The notes under the pieces: model-generated
Told to the model about the DNA's origin: nothing
The model's database searches: none
Seen by the model: only the letters and a program-made list of their open reading frames with translations
Position numbers and translations under genes: made by a program
NCBI GenBank assembly: GCA_017940245.1
Contig: JAGAYZ010000069.1
Span: forward strand, 1-49,342
Length of the DNA: 49,342 nucleotides
DNA from: Muribaculaceae bacterium
GTDB lineage: Bacteria > Bacteroidota > Bacteroidia > Bacteroidales > Muribaculaceae
Reading direction: 5' to 3'
Shown here: positions 32,929 through 39,841 of the stretch, in pieces
How positions within the stretch are numbered: the stretch's first letter is position 1
Layout: every line of letters starts with the position of its first letter

Positions 32929-32950
32929 ACCAATTCCCGCAATTACAAGA

Positions 32951-32985
32951 ATGGGTGCCACATTATCAGCGGCACCCATTTTTTA
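32951..32985. terminator. Terminator of the gyrA/TPR unit
   Basis: ATGGGTGCC/GGCACCCAT arms (32951-32959, 32971-32979), 11-nt loop, then six T. The hairpin can also act on the leftward radical SAM gene. Confidence 0.85.
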
Positions 32986-32996
32986 TACACTGTCAT

Positions 32997-34058
32997 TTAT
33001 TCTGCAGATTGAATGGTGAGATAATTGCAATGCAGCATTTCTCCCGAATCGCCTCGCAAGTGAAAAGGACCACCGACACACCAGTCCCACGCCTTGCATT
33101 TAGCACACTCATCATGCTTCATCCATCGTCGGTCACGCATCTGCTCAAATCGTGTTTGCCACACTTGGCTAAAACGATCATGATAGATGTTGCCTTGAGC
33201 ATAATGTGAACGTATGCTCATACATCCACTTATGTCGCCGTTGGCGAGAATAGAAGCGGTCTGAGTTCCTGCATCACAACGATAGTAATAGTTTCTTGCT
33301 TCTCCTTCATAATTGCCTAAGAATCCCTCACAACTATACGAGAGATTGATGTGGCTCTCTCTACGTGTTGAGACGATGAACTCCATCAGGGAAACATATT
33401 GTTTAGGAGTAAGAAATAACTCAGAATTCAATTTCGCCCTTCCCTGTGGAAAAATCGTAAAGATGCGCCACTTCTTAACTCCCGCATCAATAAGATACTG
33501 CTTGAGTTGAGGTAATGTGGGAAAATTGCACTGGTTCACGCAGGTAATGACATCCCACATGATACCATCTGTACGTGTAAGTAATTTGATGGCATTCATA
33601 GCACCCTCAAACGACGTGCCACGTAACCAATTATGCTCTTGTTCCAATCCATCAAGGCTCACCGCCACGGTGCGCAATCCGGCCTTTAATAGTTCATTCA
33701 TGAGCGAGGAAGTCAGTAGCACCCCATTTGTTACAAATCCCCACATAAACCCACGGTCAGTAATAGCACGACCACAATCAATGATATCGGGACGGACAAG
33801 CGGCTCTCCGCCGACAGTGTTCACCAGCACTTGGCTGGGCAGTGTCATGGTAGCCACATCATCCAGCACGGAGATAAAGTCGGATAATGGCATATCCTTA
33901 ATCGCAGGTTCCTTGCGGCAATCACTTCCACAATGACGACACGACAGATTGCAGCGCAATGTGCACTCCCAAAACAACTGGCGCAAAGGATGGTTTCTTT
34001 CCAGCCAGCGACGTTCACGACGTGTATTCTCCAGATTAAATAATTGACGGGTTGTCAT
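32997..34058 (-). CDS. Radical SAM/SPASM enzyme of an rSAM-lipoprotein system
   Basis: A 353-aa radical SAM maturase. The SAM-cluster motif is C36-x3-C40-x2-C43, preceded by an extra Cys32 and followed by Cys47. The GGEP block (VGGEPLVRPD) binds SAM. A C-terminal Cys-rich SPASM-type domain (SYSCEG, YRCDAG, SGCMS, DECAKCKAWDWC, LHCNY) should hold auxiliary iron-sulfur clusters. SPASM enzymes of this build modify ribosomally made peptides or proteins. The ATG overlaps the stop of the upstream small lipoprotein gene (ATGA), so the two are made together and the lipoprotein is the obvious substrate candidate. I recall that TIGRFAM/NCBIfam describes a Bacteroidota rSAM/lipoprotein pair; assignment to that family is by resemblance. 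The chemistry is unknown to me. Confidence 0.85.
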   Translation of the reverse strand: MTTRQLFNLENTRRERRWLERNHPLRQLFWECTLRCNLSCRHCGSDCRKEPAIKDMPLSDFISVLDDVATMTLPSQVLVNTVGGEPLVRPDIIDCGRAITDRGFMWGFVTNGVLLTSSLMNELLKAGLRTVAVSLDGLEQEHNWLRGTSFEGAMNAIKLLTRTDGIMWDVITCVNQCNFPTLPQLKQYLIDAGVKKWRIFTIFPQGRAKLNSELFLTPKQYVSLMEFIVSTRRESHINLSYSCEGFLGNYEGEARNYYYRCDAGTQTASILANGDISGCMSIRSHYAQGNIYHDRFSQVWQTRFEQMRDRRWMKHDECAKCKAWDWCVGGPFHLRGDSGEMLHCNYLTIQSAE

Positions 34059-34327
34059 CGAGGTCTCTGAATCGATTTGCGTTGAACATGTTGGGTCGCA
34101 GCGCTGTCTATAGCCGAATCTACGTCTTCAACAGGAGGCGGTCCATAAACATCCTCAATGACTTCTACCCTATTGCCCATTCCCGGAGGTGGGCCATACA
34201 CACATTCAGGTGGCCCCGATGAAGGACCATTCTTTGCATGGAAGCAAGACGATAGTCCCAGCATTGCACCTGTTGCCATAAGAGCTCTCATAGTCCATTT
34301 TTTCACTAGAAAGAGTACATTATTCAT
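34055..34327 (-). CDS. Small lipoprotein with VYGPPP repeats, putative radical SAM substrate
   Basis: The 90-aa precursor has a lipoprotein signal (LGLSSC, Cys28). The mature part is 63 residues, Pro/Gly-rich, with two copies of VYGPPP (residues 43-48 and 60-65), the first preceded by a second Cys (ECVYGPPP). It ends in a basic, disordered tail. The Tyr-Gly-Pro-Pro motif, the small size and the 4-nt overlap with the SPASM enzyme make it a likely modification target displayed on the cell surface or in the periplasm. An alternative start at Met13 (34291) would give a shorter but still sufficient signal peptide. Confidence 0.8.
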   Translation of the reverse strand: MNNVLFLVKKWTMRALMATGAMLGLSSCFHAKNGPSSGPPECVYGPPPGMGNRVEVIEDVYGPPPVEDVDSAIDSAATQHVQRKSIQRPR

Positions 34328-34361: not shown

Positions 34362-34392
34362 CAAAATTAATGATTTGTTCTCACATTACAAA
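34362..34392 (-). promoter_or_regulatory. Promoter of the lipoprotein-radical SAM pair
   Basis: Minus-strand TTTG at 34389-34392, 19-nt spacer, TAATTTTG at 34362-34369, giving a leader of about 28 nt. Confidence 0.7.
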
Positions 34393-34476
34393 CAAAACAA
34401 CATTGGAAAACCGCAAAAATCATATCTGATTCTATACAATTTAGCGTTTCGCTTATAGGAATCGAAGAATTCTGCG

Positions 34477-36556: not shown

Positions 36557-37504
36557 ATGAGACAATTTCTTTTAACAGCACTCGCGTGCTTGGTCATGAC
36601 AGTGACAATGGCACAAACAAAAACCCCCGAAGCCGTGCGCTTGCTTTCGCAAAGTGAGTATGCACACCAGCAACGCTCTCTACAAGAAATGGACTCGGCC
36701 GACTTGATTTCGGGCAGGTGCGAAATCTACCGTTTAGACATTCCGCAAAATCGGTCTTATCTACTCGATGATTTATTAAAAGCATTTGACCGCGACCAGA
36801 ACGAGGCATATTATCAACTGATGGAGAATAGCGGAAATACCAGCCGCCGCACTACTGCTCTAACCTATGGCACTGATGGTGAATCGGTTCTTATAGGCGA
36901 AAATAGCGACCAAAACTACCGTGTGATTTGCTTTGTGGATAAAAACCGAGAGAACTATCGTTATGGTTACGCAGTTGAATGGAATGAAACCGACAATGGC
37001 CGCATTGCTGGTCGACTGACCTGCACTTATGGCCTTCGTCCTAACAGCAACAACAAGAAATCCATTTCAATGCGTCTGGAAAACATGAAAGATTTGAGTG
37101 AACTGGGTGAGATTATTCCCGAAGCCATAAAAAGCATCAAGGTAATTGGTAAAGACAAGCTAAAAGATTTAGGTAATCTGGAAGGACTTAAAGACTTGGG
37201 TGACTACCTGGGCATTCTCACCGAAGAAGACGACATGGCTGGAGACATCATTACCGACGACGTGCAGTGGCTCACCACTTTCAACCACTATCGCAACGCT
37301 TTCAACAGGGCTGCCGACCGCAAAAGCAGTACGGCCGCATCCTATGCCACTAATATCCTTAAACTGTGCAAAAATGCCGACAAGGTCAAGCTCTCGGCTA
37401 ACGAGAAAAAACTGTGCGTGAAAAGCATTAAGCAGATGCGACAGCGCACCAAAGACTCATTTGTTCAAGGACTGCTCGACGAAGCCATAGACCTGCTCAA
37501 ATAA
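36557..37504 (+). CDS. Exported protein of unknown function, third gene of the sigma operon
   Basis: The 315-aa protein has a signal peptide cut after TMAQ. It starts 11 nt after the anti-sigma gene. The N-terminal half has mixed strands (ISGRCEIYRLDIPQNRSYLLDDLLKAFDRD, VICFVDKNRENYRYGYAVEW). The C-terminal half is helical with a leucine/lysine heptad-like stretch (IKVIGKDKLKDLGNLEGLKDLGDYL). No family recognised. Position suggests it is the effector or sensor partner of the sigma pair. Confidence 0.65.
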   Translation: MRQFLLTALACLVMTVTMAQTKTPEAVRLLSQSEYAHQQRSLQEMDSADLISGRCEIYRLDIPQNRSYLLDDLLKAFDRDQNEAYYQLMENSGNTSRRTTALTYGTDGESVLIGENSDQNYRVICFVDKNRENYRYGYAVEWNETDNGRIAGRLTCTYGLRPNSNNKKSISMRLENMKDLSELGEIIPEAIKSIKVIGKDKLKDLGNLEGLKDLGDYLGILTEEDDMAGDIITDDVQWLTTFNHYRNAFNRAADRKSSTAASYATNILKLCKNADKVKLSANEKKLCVKSIKQMRQRTKDSFVQGLLDEAIDLLK

Positions 37505-37625: not shown

Positions 37626-37633
37626 TACTTTTG
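37626..37633 (+). promoter_or_regulatory. -7 element of the kinase-AAA+ gene
   Basis: TACTTTTG fits TAnnTTTG, 25 nt before the ATG at 37658; no TTTG at the standard -33 spacing. Confidence 0.5.
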
Positions 37634-37657
37634 CGATACAAATTCAATTTACGTTTT

Positions 37658-39424
37658 ATGGGTACACTTGCTAGAGATTTCAAGATAGACAACCGCTTCA
37701 CCGTTGACTATATCATTAAGGAAAATAGTTACTGTGAATGTTATCGTGTCACCGACACTGAAGAGAATCCATATTTCCTGAAATTATACATCCTAAAGGA
37801 CACGCCCAAGAGTCTTATCAACGAAGATGGAGACGTTGCTGAAATCGCTCTATATAAGAAGCTTGACCATGCCGGTATCAATCCCTATGTAAGCAGTGGG
37901 AAAATTATGATTGACAAGGGCGTGGGCCAATTTTTGATTACAGAATACTTTAATGGCGAACTGCTAGCCGAAAAACTGCAACGCGAAGGTTGCATGAAAC
38001 TGGAACAGGCGCGACCCATTGTCAAAGCCATGGCAGAGACGCTGCACTATTTGCACGATAGTCTACATTTGCTACACAACGACATCACTCCGCGCAACAT
38101 TATGATTTCTCCCGACGGACGCCCCACGCTCATCGATTTCGGACACGCTTCCGGTATTGTGATGGGCATTCCTCCTTTCGACATCAATGACCTAAATTTG
38201 CAGTTTTGCTCCACAACTGCCATCGCCGGCCTGTATACGATTCAAAACGACATTTATGCACTCGTATCGGTATTTTATGCCATGCTCACCGGAAATGCGC
38301 CATGGTTCATCAACCTTCCGGCCGATCTCACACGCCGTGAATTAGTGAAAAGAATCAGAGAAGCAAGAAGAGCCGAACTTAACTTTAACAATACCGAGCC
38401 AGAATGTAAAGCGGTCATACTGAAAGGCTTGGGACTCACAGACGAAAAGTACACATCCATACATCAGTTCATATATGATCTGGATCACCTCGACGAACTG
38501 GAAGTGGAAGAAGATGCCGTATTTGAAAGCCGGCATAGTGGAAATACTGAGGTCGACGCTGCCGACAAAACCGACATTGAGATTAAACGAGGTGGCGGTA
38601 ACGGATTTGCCGACATTGCAGGCATGGCTGAGTTGAAAGATATGCTAGAAAAGCGCGTCATCTTCATCCTAAAGGATAAGGAGCGAGCGATGAAATACCG
38701 CCTCACACCACCTAATGGAATGTTGCTTTATGGGCCACCAGGATGTGGCAAAAGTTTCTTTGCCGAAAAATTTGCCGAAGAAACTGACTTCAATTTCATG
38801 CTCGTCAAGGCTTCTGATCTTGGCTCCATCTACATCCACGGCACACAAGGCAAAATCGCCGATCTTTTCAAGAAGGCAGAGCAGAATGCGCCCACGGTAA
38901 TCTGCTTCGATGAGTTTGATGCTTTTGTGCCTAACCGCTCAAATGGATTCGACGCAAAGCAAGCAGGCGAAGTCAATGAATTTCTATCCCAACTTAATAA
39001 TTGCTCAAAACGTGGCATCTTCGTCATAGCCACCAGCAATCGTCCCGACATGATTGACCCGGCCGTGTTGCGCACAGGACGCATCGACAAGCTTGTATAT
39101 GTCCCACTTCCCGACTTGGAGGCTCGACGTGAAATGTTAGCTTTACACATGAAAGGAAGGCCCGTAAACGAAGACATTGACTACAATCACTTGGCCCAAC
39201 TGGCCGACGGATACGTCGCGAGCGATATTGCCTATGCCGTGAATGAAGCGGCAATGATTGCAGCATTCAATGATGAAAGCATTTCTCAGCAACTACTTGA
39301 AACCACTATTCAAGGGATTAAGCCTAGCGTCAAGCCCGATGTGGTCAAACAGTATGAAGAAATTCGTGAAAAGATGGAAGGTATCGGCCGCAGTGCAGCC
39401 CTACCCAAAATAGGTTTCAAATAA
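37658..39424 (+). CDS. Protein kinase-AAA+ ATPase fusion
   Basis: A 588-aa cytoplasmic fusion. Residues about 10-260 are a eukaryotic-like kinase: probable ATP-binding Lys42, catalytic loop H140-N-D142-ITPR-N147 (HND instead of HRD), D160-F-G and the later IQNDIYALVSVFYAMLTG block. The Gly-rich loop is degenerate. A charged linker (about 280-315) leads to one AAA+ module with Walker A GPPGCGKS (359-366), Walker B ICFDEFD (415-421), sensor 1 ATSN (458-461), arginine-finger candidates in LRTGRID and the C-terminal lid helices. All nucleotide-handling residues are present in both halves. It probably couples phosphorylation to remodelling of a partner. It has its own -7 element and a YbjN-like gene 30 nt downstream. 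Confidence 0.85.
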   Translation: MGTLARDFKIDNRFTVDYIIKENSYCECYRVTDTEENPYFLKLYILKDTPKSLINEDGDVAEIALYKKLDHAGINPYVSSGKIMIDKGVGQFLITEYFNGELLAEKLQREGCMKLEQARPIVKAMAETLHYLHDSLHLLHNDITPRNIMISPDGRPTLIDFGHASGIVMGIPPFDINDLNLQFCSTTAIAGLYTIQNDIYALVSVFYAMLTGNAPWFINLPADLTRRELVKRIREARRAELNFNNTEPECKAVILKGLGLTDEKYTSIHQFIYDLDHLDELEVEEDAVFESRHSGNTEVDAADKTDIEIKRGGGNGFADIAGMAELKDMLEKRVIFILKDKERAMKYRLTPPNGMLLYGPPGCGKSFFAEKFAEETDFNFMLVKASDLGSIYIHGTQGKIADLFKKAEQNAPTVICFDEFDAFVPNRSNGFDAKQAGEVNEFLSQLNNCSKRGIFVIATSNRPDMIDPAVLRTGRIDKLVYVPLPDLEARREMLALHMKGRPVNEDIDYNHLAQLADGYVASDIAYAVNEAAMIAAFNDESISQQLLETTIQGIKPSVKPDVVKQYEEIREKMEGIGRSAALPKIGFK

Positions 39425-39454: not shown

Positions 39455-39841
39455 ATGAATCTGAACAAAATATTCTTGAAATATCTTCAAGAGCACGACT
39501 ACGAATTTAAAGAGACATCCTTTGGTATCGAGTTCAGCTATCAGAATCTCTCGTTTCAGTATTTCAGCGACGACAACGATGACCAGTTCTTCCAGCTAGT
39601 TTTACCTTCAATCTACGATGTCGATGAGAACAACTATTCACTCGTTACTGAAGCGACCGACAAGACCAACGCTGAAATCAAGGTGATAAAGACCTATGTC
39701 TATGAAGGTAAATGGGTAAACGTTGCCTTTGAGATTCTTACCGACTACACTCCTGATTTGGCCGATTTTCTTCCACGTGCCATCTCGTTGCTGTTGCAAG
39801 CTCGACTCACGTTCTACAAATCGCTTGAAAACCTCAAGTAG
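39455..39841 (+). CDS. YbjN-like small protein partnered with the kinase-AAA+ gene
   Basis: A 128-aa soluble acidic protein with alternating strands and a terminal helix pair: IFLKYLQEHDYEF, GIEFSYQNLSFQYFSDD, FFQLVLPSIYDV, AEIKVIKTYVYEGKWVNVAFEIL. The pattern resembles the YbjN/type III chaperone-like fold, which often binds a partner protein. It is 30 nt from the kinase-AAA+ stop with no terminator between, so it is probably co-transcribed and may be an adaptor or substrate. The family call is by fold resemblance only. Confidence 0.6.
   Translation: MNLNKIFLKYLQEHDYEFKETSFGIEFSYQNLSFQYFSDDNDDQFFQLVLPSIYDVDENNYSLVTEATDKTNAEIKVIKTYVYEGKWVNVAFEILTDYTPDLADFLPRAISLLLQARLTFYKSLENLK

Follow-up and report, generated by a model that had tools for sequence, protein, structure and literature searches.

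The window analysed here, 49,342 nucleotides of contig JAGAYZ010000069.1 of a Muribaculaceae bacterium, contains a radical SAM/SPASM enzyme gene overlapping a gene for a small lipoprotein, and the question raised by this locus is whether the enzyme modifies the lipoprotein and, if so, at which residues and by what chemistry. The lipoprotein gene (34055-34327, minus strand) is located upstream of the enzyme gene (32997-34058, minus strand), with stop and start codons overlapping as ATGA (34055-34058). A Bacteroidetes-type promoter-like sequence, TTTG-N23-TAATTTTG (34362-34396, minus strand), is found upstream of the pair; it matches what we take to be the Bacteroidetes promoter consensus and is one of nine such matches in the window, as compared to 1.35 expected in shuffled sequences. 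A terminator-like stem-loop of 12 pairs (32950-32980, minus strand) lies between the enzyme gene and a convergent TPR gene, and with one such site found against 1.4 expected in shuffles, the stem-loop alone is not significant. The promoter match before the lipoprotein gene and the stem-loop behind the enzyme gene fit a two-gene unit, in which no third gene was found in the window and which is flanked by the TPR gene and an S1/CvfB-like gene, with no functional link to either apparent. No plasmid match was obtained for the window DNA. Further along, positions 37631-39424 (plus strand) encode a 597-aa protein with a Pkinase domain (5.9e-22) fused to an AAA ATPase (4.6e-33), and its neighbours of 128 aa (39455-39841) and 315 aa (36557-37504) match no Pfam family at E<=0.001.

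The 353-aa enzyme belongs to NCBIfam family TIGR04133, with a score of 484.6 bits against a curated cut-off of 425, and Pfam matches to Radical_SAM (7.3e-15) and SPASM (1e-8) agree with the first-pass annotation, whose enzyme coordinates, C-x3-C-x2-C motif, GGEP and Cys-rich SPASM tail are all correct. The [4Fe-4S]/SAM motif C36-x3-C40-x2-C43 (33930-33953, minus strand) retains all three cysteines in 124/124 enzymes of the family set described below, GGEP occupies residues 83-86, and the SPASM domain spans residues 261-322 (33093-33278, minus strand) with the CX3C cysteine missing (the sequence reads CVGG). Cys47, Cys243 and six SPASM cysteines are likewise invariant in 124/124 enzymes and Cys173 is present in 123, one enzyme of less than 300 aa having been left out of this count. 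A solved structure of the enzyme family is absent among the nine matched PDB sequences, the best of which are cytosylglucuronate decarboxylase (6e-14), tetraether-lipid synthase (2e-9) and PqqE (2e-8).

The lipoprotein, the presumed substrate, is 90 aa long with lipobox LSSC, Cys28 as the lipidated residue and a mature part of 63 residues, and it aligns with window-type relatives (alignment A1, 13 rows); its length, its two VYGPPP repeats and the 4-nucleotide overlap had been read correctly at first pass. The repeats occupy residues 43-48 (site 1, 34184-34201) and 60-65 (site 2, 34133-34150) on the minus strand, and exact matches to GTNTAYGGNCCNCCNCC in the 2.70-Mb assembly (80% complete) are confined to these two sites. 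Y61-G62-P63-P64 of site 2 are invariant across A1, and so are K10, R14, G20, G24 and C28 of the signal peptide (residues 1-27, 34247-34327, minus strand), whose pattern KKW..RAL...G..LG.SSC is kept in relatives and could be a recognition element. The first-pass statement that a Bacteroidota enzyme/lipoprotein pair has been named is borne out by TIGR04133/TIGR04134 (rSAM_w_lipo / lipo_with_rSAM), names that state no chemistry; the window shares its gene order and has an adjacent lipoprotein, and the NCBI annotation of Parabacteroides and Treponema records calls the TIGR04133 neighbour a 'radical SAM-associated putative lipoprotein'. However, the proposed family search, which placed the enzyme, found no NCBIfam family for the lipoprotein at E<=1, TIGR04134 (cut-off 39.8 bits) included, and its Pfam matches lie below a cut-off. 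The sole TIGR04134 match found in the genome is weak (20.8 bits) and located elsewhere.

In Bacteroidetes, surface export is reported to depend on a signal of the type K-(D/E)2, Q-A-(D/E)2 or SDDDD-like directly following the +1 cysteine (PMC5080379). The residues after Cys28 read C-FHAKNGPSS, and comparison with this rule revealed no acidic surface-export signal in the window lipoprotein. Similarly, 62 of 95 YG lipoproteins lack an acidic residue at +2 to +6, and an export-signal-like match is present in five. An anchor facing the periplasm thus appears likelier than the surface location first proposed, insofar as the signal from other Bacteroidetes applies here.

The association of this enzyme type with a potential substrate was examined in 133 sequences (132 loci and the window), which yielded 130 enzymes, three loci lacking one (L004, L005 and L023), and 125 distinct enzymes after deduplication. 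These were gathered by enzyme similarity and not by their neighbours, and many are related, so that the individual counts cannot be treated as independent. A same-strand ORF of 40-400 aa carrying YGxP or YGP within about 1.4 kb was found for 111 of the 125, while control motifs in the same stretches gave 17 (reversed motif), 13 (antisense), 12 (FGxP), 4 each (WGxP and HGxP), 18 (YAxP), 22 (YSxP) and 24 (LGxP). Among other SPASM enzymes of the same order, such a neighbour was present in 1 of 20, these being 30 loci minus seven TIGR04133 members and three without a readable enzyme. Since the flanks of the latter loci were shorter (median 695 bases upstream), neighbours were recounted with equal flanks, giving 108/125 versus 1/20 with 700 bases upstream and 1300 downstream, and 77/125 versus 0/20 with 400 and 800 bases. 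A bare YG ORF lies beside 121 of the 125 enzymes, a weak test because YG is common. The pair layout noted at first pass hence recurs more than expected by chance, and homologues mostly devoid of such partners, named then as a refutation, were not observed, even if the partners are not all lipoproteins. One strict precursor is within reach of 73 enzymes, two of 28 and three of 10. Among the 14 enzymes without a strict neighbour, five have less than 800 bases upstream (L012, L048, L059, L114 and L129), YG variants occur at L013, L018, L059, L097, L098 and L121 (RYGVRP, RYGAW, CMYGTGP, AAYGTFP, AQYGSW, CYGVDE), L132 has CYAP, L051 looks like a partial gene, and two (L084, part masked, and L104) are unexplained.

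Recurrent same-strand neighbour families present at five or more loci (65, 16, 13, 7 and 5 loci) are YG-bearing precursors, the exception being a six-locus group of larger proteins that look pseudouridine-synthase-like by eye. Clustering at E<=1e-6 of ORFs of at least 50 aa, which could miss a short diverged protein, revealed no recurrent family of RRE/PlpY-like proteins, peptidases or exporters beside the 125 enzymes, in line with what had been noted for peptidases and exporters in the window.

Alignment of the sites defines which residues are held constant. The position before Tyr is free (V 70, M 28, C 27, K 25, E 24 and L 12 of 210 motifs, with A and R also observed), Gly follows at +1, +2 varies among P, T, V, S, G and A, and Pro occupies +3 in 192 of 210 motifs, with Tyr and Gly fixed by the motif selection and the nearby Pro partly so. 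The VYGPPP unit proposed at first pass is hence better written as x-Tyr-Gly-x-Pro, whose XYG part is a published splicease site and narrows the chemistry. Judged from these sequences, Tyr-Gly-x-Pro is the unit common to unlike partner classes, and a neighbouring Cys, Pro-richness or lipid anchor is not. This bears on the suggestion of a modification at a Cys or Pro close to the repeat, with a thioether or a comparable linkage as the product: Cys42 lies two residues before Tyr44 at site 1 and CVYGPP recurs, but site 2 has no such Cys, +2 is often not Pro, of 213 motifs, 27 carry Cys at -1 and 30 carry it at -2, and in 98 of 159 precursors Cys is absent from the four positions preceding every YG. 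A Cys thioether as the general mechanism was rejected on the latter count, and with it the Cys before the repeat as a general site; we regard a Cys or Pro target as very improbable.

The partners of these enzymes fall into several structural classes. Apart from short Pro-rich lipoproteins of the window type, they include Ig/transthyretin-like lipoproteins (TIGR04134), coiled lipoproteins (VYGSPE), small proteins that lack a signal peptide (L060, L062, L070 and L071, two of which end in a hydrophobic tail), proteins with AQ-YG behind a signal-peptidase-I-like site (L083, L087 and L089), and fusions coded downstream of the enzyme, in which YG is joined to an acyl-carrier domain PF00550 (L020:7014-7670, L068:870-1457 and L072:681-1322) or to a TonB_C domain PF03544 (L074). 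Several of these classes, like the window lipoprotein, score below the TIGR04134 cut-off. A phosphopantetheine carrier in a putative radical SAM substrate, as at L020, L068 and L072, is odd. In 27 of 111 cases the motif directly follows the lipobox Cys, for example FQAC-YGTPQ (L094, L102, L103, L105-L113, L115-L120, L122-L128, L130 and L131), where splicing, if any, would hit the lipid-anchor residue itself. Precursor class follows the enzyme tree, with 20 changes as compared to a shuffled mean of 68.2, using rough automatic labels of which some are wrong (e.g. L007). Hence the lipid-anchored precursor emphasised at first pass holds for the window, with its lipobox and Cys28, but going by the partners of its relatives the system does not depend on such an anchor.

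Ligand roles are common among Pro-rich motifs. YGxP could accordingly be a structural or binding motif, the enzyme being no modifier of its neighbour and the pair being co-inherited for another reason. However, the motif occurs in neighbours as unlike as Ig/transthyretin-like, coiled, acyl-carrier-fused, TonB_C-fused and tail-anchored proteins and also in a Nif11 RiPP precursor, which a ligand role specific to one fold does not explain, and this reading is considered improbable.

With x-Tyr-Gly-x-Pro as the candidate target, the likely reaction is suggested by the kinship of the enzyme. It matches 75 NCBIfam models at E<=1, and among the best 25 of these TIGR04103 ('nif11-class peptide radical SAM maturase 3') is second best at 137.3 bits, under its cut-off of 725, ahead of NirJ2 (124) and AhbD (122). 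TIGR04103 presumably corresponds to InterPro class IPR026482, to which PlpX belongs. PlpXY acts on XYG, naturally MYG and LYG (PMC10533398; PMC11002830; PMC10373908), and the XYG splice motif is present in the window lipoprotein and in the precursors of its relatives. In a 36-row tree, TIGR04133 and splicease-like enzymes group together against mycofactocin, TIGR04053, TIGR04347 and NirJ enzymes with support of 96/94; with long-branch outgroups in a 48-row tree the same grouping is best but weak (52/36), the rows left out of the smaller tree being L138, four of the outgroup and seven of TIGR04133. A 59-row tree without those four outgroup families places TIGR04133 and splicease-like enzymes as sisters (95/87). 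In alignment A3 (14 rows), HCGS follows the third Cys in 5/5 TIGR04133, 6/6 splicease-like and 0/3 outgroup rows, with HCAS in L138, a splicease-like row outside A3; W and P.G blocks are also common to both groups and partly present in the TIGR04053 row, and a C.AG block common to both is also found in the mycofactocin row.

Precursors of the splicease-like enzymes were compared in the same way. An enzyme encoded on a Nostoc plasmid reaches 853 bits on TIGR04103; it adjoins a Nif11 precursor ending in ALYGLPPELF and is followed by a 71-aa protein of no known family. A strict YGxP neighbour is present in only 4 of 11 splicease-like loci (L135 with LYGTP, L137 with six KYGYP, L172 and L176); at L133, L174 and L175 the short precursors carry Y-G or Y-A and no Pro, and no precursor was found beside L134, L136, L138 and L173. 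Because of these counts XYG, as far as the sequences tell, is the rule common to both groups, and Pro at +3 is not a general splicease rule. PlpXY tags tried in FtsZ were mostly ...LYGLPI or ...GYGLPI, which fit YGxP, along with one GYGVVFPG without this Pro, and among the insertions compared most were unmodified and one was modified (PMC10533398). The protein at L137 (L137:2955-3599), in a genome of the same order, is 214 aa long and repeats KYGYP six times, in most cases as KYGYPC; its neighbour is a splicease-like enzyme.

The reading we favour, with somewhat better than even confidence, is that the enzyme would splice the x-Tyr-Gly-x-Pro sites of the lipoprotein encoded just upstream, leaving anchored ketoamides as traps or tethers. 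The enzyme would act in the cytoplasm, hence before Sec export, and would excise part of the site Tyr (tyramine excision, -135.0757 Da per site), converting each VYG to a ketoamide; the lipoprotein would then be exported by Sec, lipidated at Cys28 and kept at the envelope. The same YGxP site could alternatively undergo another reaction, for example crosslinking (C-C or C-O) of the ring or beta-carbon of Tyr to a neighbour, as in cyclophanes or triceptides, or an oxidation or epimerisation of either the Tyr or the Gly. The motif evidence from the neighbours of 111/125 enzymes applies equally to this reading, SPASM enzymes of related sequence span many families, as the 75 NCBIfam models show, and the lost SPASM CX3C cysteine together with additional Cys47, Cys173 and Cys243 suggests that the active site may differ from that of spliceases. 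Yet Gly at +1 and a free -1 fit the splicease rule, the nearest other family is the splicease one, and the varied residues at +2 offer no fixed crosslink partner there, so that another reaction at this site is a real contender but a doubtful one.

If splicing occurs, the anchored ketoamides might act as reactive tethers or trap serine or cysteine proteases covalently, the latter role being suggested by reports of spliceotide products as protease inhibitors (PMC11117315, PMC10373908, both citing Scott et al.). The signal peptide may double as the recognition leader because it is unusually conserved in window-type precursors and because [LIF]G[FLIV] ahead of the lipobox is present in 62 of 93 YG lipoproteins as compared to 5 of 59 other lipobox-like ORFs of the same loci, many of which may not be real genes. 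Since some partners have no signal peptide, it cannot, on the present sequences, be needed as leader everywhere, and PlpXY is said to form ketoamides independently of the leader (PMC10533398). A wider claim, held tentatively and at less than an even chance, is that TIGR04133 enzymes are minimal RRE-free spliceases rewriting envelope-protein backbones instead of producing released peptides, with the signal peptide as leader, and that in one large branch Cys1-Tyr2-Gly3-x-Pro would become a lipidated alpha-keto-beta-amino acid N terminus, a membrane-anchored electrophile and plausibly a protease trap. If the sites are indeed spliced, beta-amino acid ketoamides of ribosomal origin would be permanent constituents of the envelope in many bacteria of the order, with protease inhibition as a possible role, and splicease activity on whole proteins in the absence of PlpY would be useful for protein labelling. 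TIGR04133, over its cut-off in 61 of 295 sampled genomes of the order, would thereby receive a concrete prediction in the form of a -135 Da mass shift.

Such a system would resemble spliceotide systems (PlpX with PlpY, TIGR04103) in its radical SAM/SPASM enzyme, XYG sites, multiple sites per precursor and sequence kinship. It differs from them in that PlpX works with PlpY and the window unit has no PlpY or RRE partner, in that their precursors have a Nif11 or nitrile-hydratase leader and the window precursor has neither, and in that they release a peptide, whereas the Sec-type lipoprotein is expected to stay in the envelope. GDL-motif/DUF1843 systems (TIGR03913) also have a related enzyme, and their short precursors carry Y-G or Y-A close to the N terminus, but these small precursors lack a signal peptide and YGxP and are not lipoproteins, and the enzyme is longer (516 aa in Azospirillum). 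The splicease group has counted 27 further splicease systems that are characterized and 939 that are predicted (PMC10533398), and the main text of a Bacteroidales RiPP survey (PMC10352776) contains neither 'lipo' nor 'TIGR041'. The named gene pair and XYG splicing are already known, and assigning TIGR04133 to XYG sites of lipoproteins and further envelope proteins is new as far as the literature was searched, where no paper on the TIGR04133/TIGR04134 family names was found. The splicease survey of Scott et al. 2022 in Chem, whose title reportedly speaks of peptides and proteins, may cover the pair and contain this assignment.

Within the family, TIGR04133 is over cut-off in 28 of 198 genomes, and a window-type precursor model built from A1 matches 12 of 198 at E<=0.001. 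Seven of these matches are strong (best E from 7e-32 to 7e-16) and TIGR04133 is present in all seven genomes; among the five weak matches (E about 1e-4), one (G476) is in a genome with the enzyme and four are in 596-613-aa frames of genomes without it and look like chance. Taking the two draws of 198 genomes to be the same, co-occurrence has a chance probability of 5.6e-7 across the family and P=0.3 within the genus of the window, the latter uninformative because all seven lie in one genus where the enzyme occurs in 14 of the 16 genomes sampled. Genome G447 has two further window-type precursors (L197 and L202) on contigs other than that of the enzyme, hence the enzyme may act in trans, and one of them adjoins a gene for a protein that looks GDSL/SGNH-like by eye. 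Seven phage records contain only distant radical SAM proteins of less than 27% identity. Plasmid-collection records of Parabacteroides, Phocaeicola (unannotated) and Treponema contain TIGR04133-type enzymes. In the spirochaete Treponema saccharophilum, plasmid pTS1 (L171) encodes a TIGR04133 enzyme with a CYGMP lipoprotein beside an Mpi-family recombinase gene, for which transfer from Bacteroidota is possible.
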